From a virus, in the IMG/VR virus record IMGVR_UViG_3300040801_001555, positions 1-21,426 of that record: a stretch of DNA of 21,426 nt, one strand, 5' to 3'. Below, piece by piece: positions 2,169-21,426 of this stretch (its first letter is position 1; every line of letters starts with the position of its first letter). The position numbers and the translations under genes were made by a program. Below the pieces are notes generated by a model. It made no database searches. It was not told the origin of the DNA and was given only the letters and a program-made list of their open reading frames with translations.

Positions 2169-2636
2169 ATGAAACTGCAACAATTATTTGAAACAAGAAC
2201 AGTTAAGGGTAAAAAGCCTGAAGGATTCGTAGAATACCTGCGTTCCCCGCAGATGGTAAAAGACGCCCTTGCTGAGCATTATCCCGGAAAAGCTACTATA
2301 GACAACATTGTCAGGCTTTTCTCTGAACATAATATAGCAATAGCAGATAACGTGGTTCTCAATGGGACGCCGGAATCCCTTGTTCCATATAGAGAATATT
2401 CCAGAGAATCTACAAATGATTGGGGCTGGACTGGCAAATTATCGGGCGAAGAGTTTGAAGCGCTAAAGGCGGATATAAAAGAGAACGGAATAAAAAATCC
2501 CGGAATATTTTACATGGAACGTAACCGCAATGATGGTTCCGTTAAAGCTTATCTTGGTGAAGGAAACCATCGACTAAGGATTGCGTTAGAGCTTGGGCTC
2601 AAATCATACCCTCTAAAATTTAGTTACTACAAATGA
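2169..2636 (+). CDS. ParB/Srx-fold protein with capsid-targeting-like leader
   Basis: A 155-aa protein. The first eight residues, MKLQQLFE, form a leader shared with the three following genes. It resembles the capsid-targeting sequence of T4 internal proteins, which gp21 cleaves after a [L/I]xE triplet; cleavage here would fall after LFE8. The C-terminal half (about 90-155) has the ParB/sulfiredoxin-like pattern: 'IKENGIKNPGIFY' and then the conserved GEGNHRLRIALELGL. That domain is found in ParB proteins and in some nucleases and ATPases, and the exact activity cannot be told. A late-like box lies 5 nt upstream and there is no Shine-Dalgarno. The inference is a late protein packaged into the head, perhaps delivered to the host with the DNA. 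The stop overlaps the next start (ATGA). Confidence 0.75.
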   Translation: MKLQQLFETRTVKGKKPEGFVEYLRSPQMVKDALAEHYPGKATIDNIVRLFSEHNIAIADNVVLNGTPESLVPYREYSRESTNDWGWTGKLSGEEFEALKADIKENGIKNPGIFYMERNRNDGSVKAYLGEGNHRLRIALELGLKSYPLKFSYYK

Positions 2637-3016
2637 AACTCAATGAACTATTTTTAATTGAAGGTGATTTGTCTCACTGGGATCGTGACGGTAACGGCTT
2701 TCTTATAGGGTATCGTGTGGTTAATGTTGATGATGATGGAAATCTCGTATCTCAGGCAGATTCAAGAGTTAAGTTACCGGCAAGAGTTGGAGTAATGCAC
2801 GAGATACCCGGTGGGGGTATGTACGTGTCCAATAGTAAGGATTATGTGAAAGATTATTATTGGCACGGCAACGAAGACCCCGATGATCCTATACAGGCAT
2901 TGATGACATATTCTTTTAGCCTTGAGGATATATTGGAAGGTAACCCCCATGATCGTGAGCCAGAATTGAGTATTAAACGGGGGAAAGTCCTAAATATACA
3001 AAGGCTAGAGGATTAA
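2633..3016 (+). CDS. Unknown protein with capsid-targeting-like leader
   Basis: A 127-aa protein starting MKLNELFLIEG, a variant of the leader shared by the neighbouring genes; a gp21-type cleavage would fall after LIE10, before Gly. The rest is acidic and soluble, with segments such as 'YRVVNVDDDGNLVSQ', 'LPARVGVMHEIPGGGMYVSNSKDY' and a C-terminal 'KRGKVLNIQRLED'. I recognise no domain. It starts inside the stop of the previous gene (ATGA), so it is translated in coupling and expressed in the same late operon. An inferred role as head-packaged cargo rests only on the leader and the context. Confidence 0.7.
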   Translation: MKLNELFLIEGDLSHWDRDGNGFLIGYRVVNVDDDGNLVSQADSRVKLPARVGVMHEIPGGGMYVSNSKDYVKDYYWHGNEDPDDPIQALMTYSFSLEDILEGNPHDREPELSIKRGKVLNIQRLED

Positions 3017-3020
3017 TTCC

Positions 3021-3371
3021 ATGAAACTGCAAAAATTATTTGAAGAATTTAACACTGATGATGACCGTTTCATGCACGGGTTTGATTCGAAACCAAAACT
3101 TTCGCCATCAGATCGAAGAAAAATTATTAAGAAAAAGGTTGTGGATGCTTCTAAAAAGATTGACTTAAAAGATGCAATGTCCGTAGACCCGGCTACATTG
3201 GAACTTTATGATAGAAAAGTATATCAACCCGACCCCAGTAAATTTATACCAGTGATTTCCAAAATGACAGGCGTGGAGCCCAACATTATAAAGACAATGA
3301 AAGGAGTTGTGGATGATGTAGAGGAAATTATATATCAGCGCCACCAAAGAGCCAAAAGGGGTGAAAAATAA
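3021..3371 (+). CDS. Small basic protein with capsid-targeting-like leader
   Basis: A 116-aa, lysine-rich protein beginning MKLQKLFEEF, so the same leader with a possible cleavage after LFE8. The central part (DRRKIIKKKVVDASKKIDLKD) is strongly basic, as in T4 internal proteins that accompany DNA, and the C-terminus is also basic (YQRHQRAKRGEK). No enzymatic motif is recognised. A Shine-Dalgarno-like GAGGA (3008-3012) precedes the ATG by 8 nt. The DNA from 3008 through the first codons nearly duplicates that at 2143-2192, minus a 13-nt insert. Confidence 0.7.
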   Translation: MKLQKLFEEFNTDDDRFMHGFDSKPKLSPSDRRKIIKKKVVDASKKIDLKDAMSVDPATLELYDRKVYQPDPSKFIPVISKMTGVEPNIIKTMKGVVDDVEEIIYQRHQRAKRGEK

Positions 3372-3372
3372 A

Positions 3373-4269
3373 ATGAAATTACAAGACTTATTTGAAAAAT
3401 ATAGTGAAAGGCTTGATCAAAATAAATTTAATGATTACCTAAAAAAGCATTACCATAAGTATAAAGAGGGTGAAAGATACCTTAATGCACTTGAAAATGC
3501 CAAGCACAATTATTATAGACAAGCCAGTTACGTGAATAATGTTAATGACATAGAAATTCATTGGGGTAGAGTTACTTTAGAAGACACTAACCCAGAATAT
3601 ATTACTTTCAATATCCCCATGATCACATATATTGAATATAATGCAGACCATCAAAATGAGCGTGAAATAAGTAGAAAGTTTGTAGTTTCAGTAGATTTTA
3701 GGTGGTATGATGACAACACCACGTTCGATCTACATATTCATAATGATGGCTCTGCCTATAATTATGATGATTTTTATTCTGTTGCAAATGATAAAGATTA
3801 TAGAGACTTTATTAAAACTATGCGCGAAGATTTGCCACGAGCAGCCGCAAATTTGATACTTGATAAGAAGCTATTTGAAGCCAAGAAAAAGAAACTTGAA
3901 AAGGACAGTGACGATCCATGCTGGGATGGTTATGTTCAAGTTGGAACCAAAAAGAAAAATGGTAAAGAAGTGCCTAATTGCGTACCACTTGAAGAAGCTA
4001 TGGTAATGGAGGGAGTTGAACTTATTGTAGAGGGTGGTCGTTGTGATGGACCAACCAAAAAAGCCTCATCTACTCGTAAAGACAAGAAGTGGATGCAGTG
4101 CGTAAAACAGCCTGATGGTAGCTATAAGCGCGTACACTGGGGTGATCCCAATGCCAAGGTTACGGGCAAGAGCGGTGACACTAAACGTAAGAAATCCTTT
4201 AGAGCCCGTCATAACTGCGATAGTGCAAAGAAAGGATCAGCACAGGCTCAGGCTTGTAAAGACTGGTAA
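3373..4269 (+). CDS. Multi-part head-cargo candidate with leader and internal protease-like sites
   Basis: The chosen start is ATG 3373, because it begins with the shared leader MKLQDLFE and has GGGGTGA (3358-3364) as Shine-Dalgarno; a GTG at 3361 would add only four residues. The 298-aa product has an N-terminal region of unknown fold (9-165), a motif CWDGYVQVGTKKKNGKEVPNCVP (183-205, split here as CWDGYVQVG and KEVPNCVP), and a basic Cys-containing C-terminal module (223-298) with RCDGPTKKASS, VHWGDPNAKV and a CDSAKKG...ACKDW ending. Both modules are familiar from aquatic T4-like phage proteins; the second looks like the DUF5872 type. Three gp21-type sites appear inside: LFE169-A170, LEE208-A209 and IVE220-G221. 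I infer a precursor that is cut during head maturation. Confidence 0.8.
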   Translation: MKLQDLFEKYSERLDQNKFNDYLKKHYHKYKEGERYLNALENAKHNYYRQASYVNNVNDIEIHWGRVTLEDTNPEYITFNIPMITYIEYNADHQNEREISRKFVVSVDFRWYDDNTTFDLHIHNDGSAYNYDDFYSVANDKDYRDFIKTMREDLPRAAANLILDKKLFEAKKKKLEKDSDDPCWDGYVQVGTKKKNGKEVPNCVPLEEAMVMEGVELIVEGGRCDGPTKKASSTRKDKKWMQCVKQPDGSYKRVHWGDPNAKVTGKSGDTKRKKSFRARHNCDSAKKGSAQAQACKDW

Positions 4270-5222: not shown

Positions 5223-6167
5223 TTATTCCCCATCTTCAAATACGATATAAGAGTTGACCTCTTCCTCTACGTACATACCACCTCTAGTCATAGCTGGAAC
5301 AACCGGCTGAAATGTTTTTGGGTTCATGACAACTCCTGCTGACATAAATGGAATATATGGTGCATAGATAATGTCATGCCTTATCTCACTTCCATTCTTA
5401 TCGAAGGTTAAAATTCCCCTCATTCCCTTAGGTGCGTCAAACGGTATAATTTTTAGCGTTTTATCAGAACCCAGAGACATAGTTGTGGGTGATATGATAT
5501 ATTCTCCCTTAAACTTTTGACCATGAGGGAGAAACAAAAGCACATCAAATTTTTCTACATAACCATTAGTTTTTTTGACTATAGTAGCAAATGCGCTTTT
5601 AATTGAATCAATAGTTATCTCATCTTTTACTATTACCTTTTCAGATGTATTGGAGACGTAATCAATAATGTTGTGTTCAATTTCTTTAATATACATAGAA
5701 GCAATAGAATCAAAAAATCTCATGGCATCAGATTTGTTGAGTTTTTCGTCTGCGGTGTCAAGCATAATACTTTGCTGCATTCTATGAGTTCTCGCTTCTA
5801 CTGCATGTGTTTGTATATTAGCGTCAACAGGGGAAAAATCCGCATGTGAAACTAATCCTACCGGGCCACTTAATGGCTGGATTCCGACAAGCTCATTAAT
5901 AAAAGAGTCGGCCATTTTTGAATAAAGAACAGCATTCATAGTTGGGTCTAATCTCATTTTAACAGTCTTATCATGGGGATTGTTACTGGCGTATGAACTA
6001 TTTTGTATAGTCCATGCTATATCGATAGAGTTCTGTAAGAACTGCTTATTATTGCTGGTATAATAAGCTTTAATTTTTCTAGTGAAAAGCCATTTACGAA
6101 TTTTTTTGACAATAGTATTGTTTTTGTAATTGTAACGAATTAGTTTTCCGGGTATAGCTATATTCAT
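5223..6167 (-). CDS. gp23/gp24-family capsid protein paralogue
   Basis: A 314-aa protein clearly related to the major capsid protein at 18446. It has VGIQPLSGPVGLV (94-106) against VGVQPMSGPVGLV, and YAPYIPFMSAGVVMNP (269-284) plus QPVVPAMTRGG against YAPYIPLMSTGVIMNP and QPMVSLMTRYG. It is about 150 residues shorter, lacking the Ala/Gly-rich insert and the usual propeptide, and its N-terminus is basic (YNYKNNTIVKKIRKWLFTRK). T4 gp24, the vertex protein, is also a gp23 paralogue, so a vertex or minor capsid role is the leading guess. It is encoded alone on the minus strand with its own late box (6191-6198) and Shine-Dalgarno TAGGAG. It ends 6 nt from tRNA-Trp. Confidence 0.88.
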   Translation of the reverse strand: MNIAIPGKLIRYNYKNNTIVKKIRKWLFTRKIKAYYTSNNKQFLQNSIDIAWTIQNSSYASNNPHDKTVKMRLDPTMNAVLYSKMADSFINELVGIQPLSGPVGLVSHADFSPVDANIQTHAVEARTHRMQQSIMLDTADEKLNKSDAMRFFDSIASMYIKEIEHNIIDYVSNTSEKVIVKDEITIDSIKSAFATIVKKTNGYVEKFDVLLFLPHGQKFKGEYIISPTTMSLGSDKTLKIIPFDAPKGMRGILTFDKNGSEIRHDIIYAPYIPFMSAGVVMNPKTFQPVVPAMTRGGMYVEEEVNSYIVFEDGE

Positions 6168-11925: not shown

Positions 11926-13104
11926 ATGAAAATAAAAACCCTAATCGAATCAACCAAGCAAATAGATTTGTCTTCAGTCATGAATGACGATCTTAGGCGA
12001 TTAGATAAACTGTTTCAAAGTAAGGGGTTCGAACTTAGAATCGTGGGAGGTGCTGTGCGCGATATTCTTTCGGGAAAGGAACCTAAAGATATAGACCTTG
12101 CATCTGATGCCAATCCTCAAGAGGTAGTGAATTTACTGAAGTCTGAAAATATTAGGGTAATTGAAACTGGCTTACAACATGGCACAGTTACGGCTAACAT
12201 GAATGACGAAGACTACGAGTTTACCACCCTTAGAATTGATAAAGAAACTGATGGTAGACACGCCGAAGTTGAGTATACACGAGATTGGGAAATAGATGCC
12301 GAACGTAGGGATTTGACTTTCAATGCCATGAGTATGGATTTCGAAGGCAATCTTTACGACTATCATGGCGGACATGATGACCTTAACTCAGGCACCGCGA
12401 AGTTTGTAGGAAATGCGGATAAAAGAATGCAGGAAGATTATTTAAGGATTCTTCGCTACTTTAGATTTCAGGGAAGAATGGAATCCCCCAATTTTGATGA
12501 ACATACATTAGACGCCATAGCTGCAAATTCAGAAGGACTTAAAAGAATAAGCGGTGAAAGGATTTGGTCTGAAATGGGCAAAATACTTTCCGGAAATAAT
12601 CTTAACAAGGTTATGAGCCAGATGAAAAAAACTGGGGTATTGGATGTTATTGGAATTGATGGCCCTAATCGTGAGCTACTACGAGTCAAAGGTAACACCG
12701 ATGATAAAAATTTACTGCTTGCCTCCCTACTAAATTCCGAAAGTGACTTGGATGTGTTGAGAAGTAAGTGGAAATTCAGCAACCCTGAATACAGTGTAAT
12801 GAAATTCATCATTCGCAATAGGGGCAAAAATTACTCTCTTAGTGATATTAAGAAGATGGTCTCCGTTGATCGTGTACCCAGAGAAATGGTGGAAAAGCTT
12901 ATGGAGTATGAAGGAAGAACTGAAGTACTTGGGCAGTTGCAAAAGTGGACTACTCCGGAATTTCCAATAAATGGTAATGATCTTAAAGGTGTGGGCATAT
13001 CTCCGGGACCTGAAATGGGAGAAACCCTTTCAATACTTAGAAATAAATGGGCCCAATCAGGCTATAAGCTAAGTAAGGAAGAATTACTGAGCGGTCTCCA
13101 ATGA
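11926..13104 (+). CDS. cca: tRNA nucleotidyltransferase / poly(A) polymerase family protein with leader
   Basis: A 392-aa class II nucleotidyltransferase. The active-site motifs are complete: GGAVRD (41-46), DID (55-57, metal-binding carboxylates), RRDLTFNAM (127-135), DLNSG (152-156), the QEDYLRILRYFRFQGR segment (169-184) and GERIWSEM (about 209-216). The likely reaction is addition or repair of the 3' CCA end of tRNAs, although poly(A) polymerases share these motifs. All eight tRNAs here already encode CCA, so repair of damaged ends is more likely than maturation. It starts MKIKTLIES, which resembles the capsid-targeting-like leader with cleavage after LIE8. The stop overlaps the methyltransferase start (ATGA). 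Confidence 0.9.
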   Translation: MKIKTLIESTKQIDLSSVMNDDLRRLDKLFQSKGFELRIVGGAVRDILSGKEPKDIDLASDANPQEVVNLLKSENIRVIETGLQHGTVTANMNDEDYEFTTLRIDKETDGRHAEVEYTRDWEIDAERRDLTFNAMSMDFEGNLYDYHGGHDDLNSGTAKFVGNADKRMQEDYLRILRYFRFQGRMESPNFDEHTLDAIAANSEGLKRISGERIWSEMGKILSGNNLNKVMSQMKKTGVLDVIGIDGPNRELLRVKGNTDDKNLLLASLLNSESDLDVLRSKWKFSNPEYSVMKFIIRNRGKNYSLSDIKKMVSVDRVPREMVEKLMEYEGRTEVLGQLQKWTTPEFPINGNDLKGVGISPGPEMGETLSILRNKWAQSGYKLSKEELLSGLQ

Positions 13105-17440: not shown

Positions 17441-18394
17441 ATGGACGAACTACTTCAGAAATTGCTGGAAAACGATCTTCTGACTGAAGACACAAGGGAT
17501 GAGCTTAAAGAAGCTATCCAGTCTCAGGTCAACGAAGCCGTTGAACAGGCAGTAAATGAGGCTAAGGAAGAAACGGAAACAGCGGTTCGTGCAGAGCTTG
17601 CCGAGCAGTTCGTTGTTGACAAAGAAGCTTTAGTCGAAGCAATTGACACAAAGCTCGATGTCTTTCTAGAGAAAGAGCTTGATGAACTTAAAGACGATAT
17701 TGAAAACTTTAGAGACTTGGAAGCTGAATTTGCTGCGAAGCAGGTAGAGATGAAAAAGCAACTCTCTGAAGTAGCAAAGAAAGATTTTGCAAAACTTGTC
17801 GATATCCTAGATGAGTATCTAAACGAAAGAGTGGAAGCTGAATTCGAAGAACTTAAGGAAGATATCGAAGAAGTACAGAAATTACGTTTCGGAGCTAAGA
17901 TTGTTGAATCCTTCAGGGAAGAGTACGAGCAACACTTCCACAATGCTGATGAGTTTAACTCTAGGACTGAAAAGATGAAGTCCGAACTTAGCAAAGTTAC
18001 AAAAGAACTCAATGAAGCCCGTGAGCAGCTAGAAAGCGCAGAGCGCGAAAAGGTTGTTAATGAAGCTTTGAGTAATCTCGAAGGCAAGCCACGCGAAATA
18101 ATGGAGGCTATTCTAGCTAAGGTGCCAACTGATAAGGTTGTACCTACCTACGAACAGTTCATTGATCGCGTAGTTGCAAAAGGGACGGTTGAAGATGAAG
18201 CGGAGAAGGAAAGTGAAGTACTAGCCGAAGACTCAAAACCACAATCTGATGAGGGCGAAAGCCTAACCGAAACCGTTGAGGTAAGTGGAGACACTGCTGG
18301 ACCGGATGTTGAAACCGTTGGTGACAATTCTGTAACCAAGCTGGATGAAAATGAAGTCTACAGACTCCGTGAACTCACAGGACAGTTAGGGTAA
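17441..18394 (+). CDS. 22: Prohead core scaffolding protein (gp22-like)
   Basis: A 317-aa protein made largely of acidic heptad-like helix, for example EEFEELKEDIEEVQKL and TKELNEAREQLESAERE. The C-terminal tail is disordered and acidic (about 245-295), followed by a short basic end, RLRELTGQLG. It has only one aromatic-poor hydrophobic region and no enzyme motif. Length, composition and position directly before the gp23-type capsid gene match T4 gp22, which forms the internal scaffold on which the capsid assembles and is then destroyed by the prohead protease. Several [L/I/V]xE triplets are present as potential cleavage sites. A late box and AAGGAG precede it. Confidence 0.9.
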   Translation: MDELLQKLLENDLLTEDTRDELKEAIQSQVNEAVEQAVNEAKEETETAVRAELAEQFVVDKEALVEAIDTKLDVFLEKELDELKDDIENFRDLEAEFAAKQVEMKKQLSEVAKKDFAKLVDILDEYLNERVEAEFEELKEDIEEVQKLRFGAKIVESFREEYEQHFHNADEFNSRTEKMKSELSKVTKELNEAREQLESAEREKVVNEALSNLEGKPREIMEAILAKVPTDKVVPTYEQFIDRVVAKGTVEDEAEKESEVLAEDSKPQSDEGESLTETVEVSGDTAGPDVETVGDNSVTKLDENEVYRLRELTGQLG

Positions 18395-18445: not shown

Positions 18446-19858
18446 ATGAGTGATAAAAATGATCTTTTAACAGAGAATTGGGGTGAGGCAAAGGAAGTAC
18501 TACTAGACGGCCTTTCTCACGCAAAGCGTAAGATTGTTGCACCCCTACTCGAAAACCAGAGGAATCACCTACTTAAGGAAACCGCTGCCGCTGGGTCCAT
18601 TCAGGCTCACGACATCGCCAATTTCCGTCAGGCGCTTCTTCCAGTAGTTCGCCGTGTAATTCCGGGAACTATGGCAACCGAAATCGTTGGTGTACAGCCC
18701 ATGTCTGGACCAGTTGGTCTTGTATACAGCATGCGCTACACCTACAATGAAGACGTAACTCACGATCCAACCAAGTCCCCATTCGGTGGTTTTGATATTG
18801 CCGACGGTGACGAAGCGTTTGGTAACAGCAAGCTTCTAAGGGCGTTCTACTCAGGTAACACTGGTACCGCTCAGGCTGCTGGTGCATCTGGTCTGGCACA
18901 CGATGCTGCGGCTGCTGCTGATATTGACGCAGCAACTGCTGACGGTGACGCTTGGGAAAGCTCCGCTGGTTCAGATTACGCTACTGGCGGAACTGATGGT
19001 ACTATGGACCTTAACAGCAGCGTTGATGTTGCTGGTACCCTTCTGGGTGGTTCTGGTTCCTTCATTGAAGGTTCCGGTGGTCGTAAGATGGGTCTAGAGC
19101 TACTCTCGCAGGCTGTTCAGGCTGGCTCTCGTAAGCTACAGGCTGGATGGACTCTTGAGGCTATGCAGGACCTAGACACACAGCACGGTCTCGATATTGA
19201 GAGTGAGATGACTCGTGGCATGTCCGCGCACATCACTCAGGAAATCGACGCAGAAATCCTATCCGACCTTCTAGCACTAGCTGGTACTGTTCGTGCATAC
19301 GACCACGCAGCTACGGCTGGCCCAACCTACGCTCCAGCGTTTGTTGGTGATCGCTTCGCTAACCTTCAGGGCACCATTAATGAAGTTGCGAACGAGATCG
19401 GACGTAAGATTCGTGTTGGCGTAGCTAACTGGATCGTTGTTAGCCCAATGATCGTATCTGTTCTTCAGACTGCTTCTAAAGCAGTATTCGCTCCTGCGGT
19501 TGAAGGCAGCTTCGAAGGACCTAACGACACCAAGCTAGTTGGTACACTTAACGGAAACGTTAAAGTATACAGCTACCTATGGAACGCAGAACAGCCCGGT
19601 GCTTCTAGCCCTGCTGGTGACGCGCAAATCCTAGTTGGTTACAAAGGTGGAAACGGTGAAAGTCAGGCTGGATACTTCTACGCCCCTTACATCCCACTAA
19701 TGTCAACGGGTGTTATTATGAACCCTGTTACGACACAGCCAATGGTCTCATTGATGACCCGTTACGGTAAGGTAGCCCTTACTGATCCAACGATCTCCCT
19801 AGGGAATTCAGCGGACTACTACGGTAAAATCAATGTTACCAACCTACAGTTCCTATAA
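18446..19858 (+). CDS. 23: Major capsid protein (gp23-like)
   Basis: A 470-aa precursor of the HK97-fold T4 gp23 family, which builds the hexagonal lattice of the head. The conserved block VRRVIPGTMATEIVGVQPMS (68-87) is followed by GPVGLVYSMRY. The C-terminal block is YAPYIPLMSTGVIMNP (412-427) with QPMVSLMTRYG. The likely propeptide cut by the gp21-type protease is at LKE45-T46, by analogy with cleavage after residue 65 in T4. Residues about 145-205 are an Ala/Gly/Asp-rich insert. AAGGAG lies before the ATG. GC content and codon choice are visibly higher and more uniform than in neighbouring genes, as expected for a very highly expressed protein. A strong terminator follows. Confidence 0.97.
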   Translation: MSDKNDLLTENWGEAKEVLLDGLSHAKRKIVAPLLENQRNHLLKETAAAGSIQAHDIANFRQALLPVVRRVIPGTMATEIVGVQPMSGPVGLVYSMRYTYNEDVTHDPTKSPFGGFDIADGDEAFGNSKLLRAFYSGNTGTAQAAGASGLAHDAAAAADIDAATADGDAWESSAGSDYATGGTDGTMDLNSSVDVAGTLLGGSGSFIEGSGGRKMGLELLSQAVQAGSRKLQAGWTLEAMQDLDTQHGLDIESEMTRGMSAHITQEIDAEILSDLLALAGTVRAYDHAATAGPTYAPAFVGDRFANLQGTINEVANEIGRKIRVGVANWIVVSPMIVSVLQTASKAVFAPAVEGSFEGPNDTKLVGTLNGNVKVYSYLWNAEQPGASSPAGDAQILVGYKGGNGESQAGYFYAPYIPLMSTGVIMNPVTTQPMVSLMTRYGKVALTDPTISLGNSADYYGKINVTNLQFL

Positions 19859-19968: not shown

Positions 19969-21426
19969 ATGACTAAACTAAAATACCCAGAATGCTTAAT
20001 GTCTGCGGGGCTAAGGGTTGTTGGAAAGTACAAAACTAGTAATGACCATGTAGATATAAAATGTTTGCTGTGTGGGGACGTATTTAACGCAACACCCAAA
20101 TCCAAAATGAGTAATTATAAAAAACATAAAACCAAGGGATGTCCTAAATGTACATGGGAGGCTCGTTATCAAAATATAAATGAATCCAATACAAAGAAAC
20201 TTAAGAATATGGGCTATAAGTTAATAACTCCATATACTGGACTTTATGAAGACATTGAGTTAGTTAACACGAATTGTGATTGCGGTAGGTCTTGGGTAAC
20301 TAAGCCATCTAGAATATTTACGGGAAGGTCATTTTGTAAGCCATGCAATGACGAAACTAAAGCTGAACGAATGCATTATTGGAACAATAAAAGGTCGGAA
20401 AAGGCTATTAAGAATCTTGAGGGGTTTGAATATTACAGAAAAAAAGTTCGCTTATTGTCAGAGCAGGTGTATAGAGATAATTTAGAATATTTCACAGAAA
20501 GTAATAAAAAAACAAGGGGAAGAAATAAACACCATTTAGATCATATATTATCTATATCGTTCTGCTTCCAATACAATATTCCCCCAGAAATATGCGCAGA
20601 TAAAACTAATCTACAATTACTGAAAGAATCCGTTAATATAAAAAAGCATAAAAATATAACCCATAAAATACCGAAAATTTTTGATGAATATTTAGATTCT
20701 TCTAAAATAATAAGAAATTTTACAAATACCATACACAGAGAAATACCGGTCAAATCTGAAAAATGGTACAGAGTTGAAAATATAGATATACCAATATATT
20801 TTCATGAGCAGAAATTGGCTATATTTTTGCTGACTTTTGATTTCTATAAAGAATCGAACTTAAAAAACAAAAAACATGCTCAAAATATAAGTAATATTCT
20901 CAATAACAAGGGTATCCGCTCAATCATGTTTACTGAAGATGAATGGATGGACAAAAGATCATTAATTATAAACAAGATTAATCATTTTGTCGGAAAAAAT
21001 ACTGCGCCAAAGGTCTATGCTCGAAAGTGTAAAATAAAAGACATATCCGCCACCGAAAAATCCAATTTCTTAAAAAGGTACCACATACAGGGTAATGATA
21101 GGAGTAATATACATCTGGGTCTATATTGTGGAGAAACATTAGTTTCCGTCATGACATTTAGTAGACCTAAAATTTTTATGAAAGGTGCCGATACCGATAA
21201 AAATAATGTTTATGAACTGTCCCGATTTGCGAATACTGATGATTATAGGGTAGTTGGGTCTTTCCCCAAGTTATTAAAATACTTCGTAAGAAATTACAAG
21301 TTTGAAAAAATATTCAGTTTTGCTAATTTAAAAATAAGTCGAGGTGAAATTTATGAGAAAAATGGATTTATACTATCAGAAATATTACCCCCGGATTATT
21401 CTTACATAGTCGAAGGCAAACTAAAA
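19969..21426 (+). CDS. Multi-domain homing endonuclease (partial, runs off the window)
   Basis: An ORF of at least 486 codons with no stop before the window edge. The N-terminus has two zinc-ribbon units: C32xxC35 with C58xxC61, and C103xC105 with C123xxC126. Residues about 183-230 carry an HNH-like core: HHLDHILSI (188-196), IPPEI and NLQLL, then N223. Residues 265-340 resemble the Vsr-like PD-(D/E)XK (EDxHD) domain, keeping TEDEW (322-326). The usual 'EfnGlyWH' core, however, is replaced by FLLTFDFYKE, so this part may be inactive. Residues 350-480 form the associated C-terminal module (RYHIQG, VSVMTFSRP, YELSRFAN, SRGEIYEKNGF). Its position right after gene 23 parallels segD in T4. It is visibly more AT-rich than gene 23. 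Confidence 0.85.
   Translation, partial: MTKLKYPECLMSAGLRVVGKYKTSNDHVDIKCLLCGDVFNATPKSKMSNYKKHKTKGCPKCTWEARYQNINESNTKKLKNMGYKLITPYTGLYEDIELVNTNCDCGRSWVTKPSRIFTGRSFCKPCNDETKAERMHYWNNKRSEKAIKNLEGFEYYRKKVRLLSEQVYRDNLEYFTESNKKTRGRNKHHLDHILSISFCFQYNIPPEICADKTNLQLLKESVNIKKHKNITHKIPKIFDEYLDSSKIIRNFTNTIHREIPVKSEKWYRVENIDIPIYFHEQKLAIFLLTFDFYKESNLKNKKHAQNISNILNNKGIRSIMFTEDEWMDKRSLIINKINHFVGKNTAPKVYARKCKIKDISATEKSNFLKRYHIQGNDRSNIHLGLYCGETLVSVMTFSRPKIFMKGADTDKNNVYELSRFANTDDYRVVGSFPKLLKYFVRNYKFEKIFSFANLKISRGEIYEKNGFILSEILPPDYSYIVEGKLK

Follow-up and report, generated by a model that had tools for sequence, protein, structure and literature searches.

The open reading frame (ORF) at 3373..4269 on the plus strand of the 21,426-nucleotide stretch of viral DNA analysed here (the window) encodes a 298-residue protein (P0001) in which several short motifs resemble the target of the T4 prohead protease. 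In phage T4, internal and core proteins carry an N-terminal targeting leader and are cut after L/I-x-E, the core proteins into several fragments (PMC9026906). The question raised by the locus is whether its product is likewise a head protein divided into smaller pieces.

Parts of the protein and candidate cleavage sites

The ORF begins with ATG at 3373 and its stop codon ends at 4269. An in-frame GTG at 3361 is an alternative start that would lengthen the protein by four residues; the ATG was preferred because the leader then matches those of neighbouring ORFs. This capsid-targeting-like leader, MKLQDLFE (3373..3396), is real, but the next residue (P1') is Lys and the position is not a canonical cut site. 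It is followed by an N-terminal region (residues 9-169, 3397..3879) for which no relative was found in a search of viral contigs, a CW module (DDPCWDGYVQVGTKKKNGKEVPNCVP, residues 180-205, 3910..3987) predicted to form a beta hairpin, and a basic Cys-rich C-module (residues 221-298, 4033..4266), all on the plus strand. Domain and family searches revealed these two small modules only and no enzyme domain. The full-length protein had no PDB match by sequence, a profile of the C-module gave only chance-level matches against PDB sequences, and comparison by fold gave no Foldseek match in the PDB at E<=0.001 and a best VIA Z of 2.3. The suggestion in the original prediction that cleavage would release small basic peptides, putatively DNA-binding, suits the C-module in size and charge (78 residues, pI 10.1) and applies only weakly to the CW piece (pI 8.0).

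Three sites had been proposed to separate the modules, LFE169/A170 (3871..3882), LEE208/A209 (3988..3999) and, at the C-module border, IVE220/G221 (4024..4035), where the slash marks the predicted cut; all are present on the plus strand exactly as described. A pattern scan for strict [LIV]xE/[AGS] identified an additional site that the prediction had not listed, VME213/G214 (4003..4014, plus strand), bringing the strict sites to four (169/170, 208/209, 213/214 and 220/221). The proposed placement between modules was borne out, with all four located in residues 163-226, outside the confidently modelled CW and C modules. In the AlphaFold2 model pLDDT is mostly about 80-90 for the CW hairpin (187-205) and for the C-module (231-298), and below 50 for residues 214-220; LEE208 is part of a short low-confidence helix, LFE169 is close to the end of a helix that is likewise of low confidence, and the N-terminal region is poorly modelled with low confidence. 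L/I-x-E sites at the expected places exceed chance in this ORF: shuffling the whole protein yielded a mean of 0.44 strict sites (P(>=4)=0.0006), and shuffling residues 163-226 alone yielded a mean of 0.26, with four never reached in 5,000 shuffles.

Leaders of neighbouring ORFs and the head genes of the phage

Leaders of the same kind begin the ORFs at 2169..2636 (MKLQQLFE/T; GNHRL motif and weak ParB-like matches), 2633..3016 (MKLNELFLIE/G) and 3021..3371 (MKLQKLFE/E), and a tRNA nucleotidyltransferase identified by domain match at 11926..13104 (MKIKTLIE/S), all on the plus strand. MKL[QN]xLF thus begins four consecutive genes, and neither their bodies nor that of the ORF at 11926 are significantly similar. 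T4 targets proteins to the head by such N-terminal sequences (PMC9026906). The leaders are supportive only, since the genome-wide count of N-terminal LxE leaders was 26 against a background of 14.5 but a reversed-motif control gave 29.

The tRNA nucleotidyltransferase of a related phage has the leader MKIIKLFE/A; the enzyme of Xanthomonas phage XacN1 is without one, so the leader is not universal. The enzyme may be packaged in the head. Some NMNAT-like proteins of T4-like phages begin with similar leaders (Melnitz, MKKFSEIIE/A), and NMNAT-like or cytidylyltransferase proteins have been reported in cyanophage virions. In several viral contigs (L271-L283) a tRNA nucleotidyltransferase is seemingly fused behind larger open frames with LNEE/A or INEE/S at the joint.

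The major capsid protein gp23 is encoded at 18446..19858 on the plus strand (PF07068, E=1.9e-86; predicted cut LKE45/T46) and is 65% identical to that of XacN1 and 85% identical to that of a 316,801-base sister contig. Among 54 distinct gp23 sequences, that of the window included, LxE at the likely maturation site is followed by T/S/A/N/E, mainly Thr or Ser and then Ala, the search pattern itself having demanded Glu or Gln at that site. Directly upstream, a gp22-like scaffold candidate (17441..18394, plus strand) was assigned by position and matches only phrog_10922, of unknown function. A gp21-type protease (Peptidase_S77) was found in 12 of 12 close relatives, XacN1 included. It was not found on the 21 kb window, as expected from the sister contig, in which about 40 kb separates gp21 from gp23. 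The lineage therefore appears to possess both gp23 and the gp21 protease, as expected for a gp21-processed T4-type head protein. A second gp23-like protein of 314 residues is encoded on the minus strand at 5223-6167 (PF07068, E=1.3e-10). Scattered through the window are genes for eight tRNAs (Arg, Pro x2, Trp, Thr, Val, Ser and Met), and the C-terminal part of an ORF that runs off the end of the window (19969-21426) weakly resembles Mom (PF25680, below cut-off).

The sister contig is syntenic from about 6.2 kb of the window on and lacks the 1-6 kb block that holds ORF 3373..4269. Among 42 phage records close by gp23, 4 had matches, to modules only, and the ORF was consequently considered an accessory gene. 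Its position in a block missing from the sister phage, together with an N-terminal region that has no relatives, would suit a protein located outside the head whose leader and sites are accidental. This explanation is very improbable given the same leader on four consecutive genes with dissimilar bodies and the nature of related module proteins, which include virion proteins, portal fusions and head-protease fusions. The CW-module protein of cyanophage S-SCSM1 carries a virion protein annotation, and the S-SCSM1 paper describes a virion proteome obtained by mass spectrometry. A literature search found no paper on the CW or KSFRARH module in a polyprotein or head-processing role.

Border sites in proteins that share the modules

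The C-module is mobile; it was found in at least 507 confirmed viral loci, stand-alone or joined to unrelated proteins. Its match to Pfam DUF5754 (PF19058) scored 17.8 bits, under the gathering cut-off of 27.4. Contexts were labelled T4-like when gp23, gp21 or a T4 portal was on the contig, or from a named phage's taxonomy or T4 portal. In these contexts [LIVMF]xE/[AGS] occupied the seven-residue slot directly before the C-module in 12 of 14 (0.8 expected), the exceptions being L175 and L176; when the 14 were shuffled no shuffle exceeded 4 border sites. The control motifs LxD, LxK/R, LxQ/N and polar-xE were absent before the C-module in all 14. No border site was present in the five contigs that lack gp20, gp21 and gp23 and measure at least 90 kb (Fisher P=0.0018 versus T4-like). 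It does occur in 4 of the 14 marker-free contigs that measure at least 40 kb, and these could be parts of fragmented T4-like genomes. Outside T4 contexts the P1 residue is mostly Ala or Gly, and several of these copies keep the small residue after it (ARAAEYQG, GKGSEYQG, ALGSEYQG), indicating that Glu is unnecessary for the C-module fold. Since the module also occurs in non-T4 phages, its function would not need cleavage.

A second sample consisted of loci chosen by DNA for EYQGKKV inside the C-module, blind to the residues upstream. The 79 distinct contexts comprised 56 fused with LxE/A or LxE/S, 12 stand-alone and 11 other, the site being present in 56 of 67 fused copies; contexts in both samples are partly related, and rough dereplication of the second leaves 23 distinct fused. 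T4 markers were on few of these contigs, most of which are short; of the gp21- or gp23-positive contigs, L301, L316 and L332 have the site, and L360, likewise positive, lay outside the checked contexts. The 12 stand-alone copies begin with M-A or M-S at the same residue as the cut position in fused copies, and Met removal and cleavage after Glu would therefore yield the same N-terminus, A-EYQG. The nearest architecture, a 149-residue protein (L242), consists of the leader MKINEILSE/A, a CW module, LDE/A and a C-module, and short proteins of the window's own subtype composed of a leader and the C-module have ILEE/S, ILEE/A or LLTE/S.

These comparisons bear on whether the protein is simply a leader-targeted, head-internal protein that remains uncut, its internal LxE motifs reflecting linker composition or forming part of the modules. 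The linkers are indeed Glu-rich and the small P1' residue also occurs in non-T4 contexts; however, the same linkers when shuffled give 0.8 of 14 rather than 12, control motifs give none, non-T4 contexts drop Glu yet retain the small residue, and stand-alone C-modules start exactly after the border. Such a protein is thus an unlikely alternative, and the comparisons strongly support IVE220 as a border cleavage site.

Relatives of the CW module were found in 72 viral loci by whole-protein search and in 354 records of a phage collection. A site within 22 residues upstream of the module was present in 7 of 15 T4-like proteins (1.2 expected; 0 of 1,000 shuffles as high) and in 5 of 38 other CW-module proteins (2.6 expected), results that give moderate support to LFE169 as a cut site. 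Sites downstream of the module were not enriched (3 of 15 T4-like proteins, 1.7 expected, P=0.22), leaving LEE208 without support beyond its presence here. The expectation that homologues would conserve the predicted sites thus held strongly for the border position IVE220, moderately for LFE169 and not for LEE208. In the several-module virion or structural proteins L258 and L259 of cyanophages, VSE/G precedes a region of the DUF6321 type (VSEGAAWTKK, VSEGAAWTRK). The principle of a site at the module edge may extend to these proteins.

The pattern of one well-conserved border and no enrichment downstream of the CW module would also suit the main rival explanation, in which the protein up to about residue 220 serves as a single long propeptide that gp21 removes and shreds, the C-module being the sole mature product and the CW piece and linkers leaving the head. 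A precedent is provided by SPN3US head proteins, the N-terminal propeptides of which comprise 111-254 residues, are cut several times and are mostly lost (PMC10052503). The C-border cut is common to this explanation and to a polyprotein. The CW module, however, is conserved in many proteins and occurs without the C-module, and probably has a role of its own; a single long propeptide is therefore judged rather unlikely.

Proposed processing and comparison with known systems

The explanation that we consider probable is that the product of ORF 3373..4269 is a polyprotein located inside the head of a T4-like jumbo phage, targeted to the prohead core by its leader and cut by gp21 in its linkers. 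The original prediction of a head polyprotein is partly supported, as regards the head context, a leader resembling a capsid-targeting sequence and the presence at module borders of sites like those of the prohead protease, with the exception of the unconserved LEE208. The leader would direct the polyprotein into the prohead core and, during maturation, the gp21-type protease would cut the linkers after [LIV]xE, at least directly before the 78-residue basic C-module and, probably, ahead of the CW module as well. Once released, the C-module would remain in the head or leave with the ejected DNA. More tentatively, and with somewhat less than even confidence, we suggest that T4-like phages share a cassette system in which small modules and enzymes are exchanged among head proteins, each accompanied by a prohead-protease site at its edge. 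A variety of head proteins could then bring them into the capsid and set them free with the N-terminus of the stand-alone form.

T4-like phages abound in the sea, and many of their head proteins are still annotated as hypothetical. A cut site at the module border that tracks T4-type head genes makes it possible to predict, by a simple rule, which pieces are set free inside the capsid; published virion proteomes, searched again for semi-specific peptides, could serve to test this rule. The rule further singles out enzymes, the tRNA nucleotidyltransferase and NMNAT-like proteins, as candidates for delivery into the host.

Among families in Pfam, the weak, sub-threshold match of the C-module is to DUF5754, and DUF6321 (PF19846) adjoins the CW module in cyanophage proteins; the function of both families is unknown. 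Like the polyprotein proposed here, the phage polyvalent proteins are multidomain, packaged in the head and built from mixed-and-matched domains (Iyer et al. 2017, PMC5512222), although in the portions of that report consulted their processing is ascribed to internal metallopeptidase domains rather than to gp21 sites between modules. In SPN3US and phiKZ, ejection proteins made as long chains are cut at several points by the gp21-related proteases gp245 and gp175, respectively; in contrast to this ORF, cleavage in SPN3US follows the motif AxE, and it is described as yielding a propeptide and one mature protein. The closest likeness is to the gp21-processed T4 proteins IPI-IPIII, Alt, gp22, gp67 and gp68, with which the protein shares a putative targeting leader and L/I-x-E sites, here known from sequence alone. 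Unlike in the T4 internal and core proteins, the pieces correspond to conserved mobile modules that recur in many unrelated proteins and retain the site at their edge. The processing proposed here is best read as a variant of that of T4 internal and core proteins, apparently new in this form.
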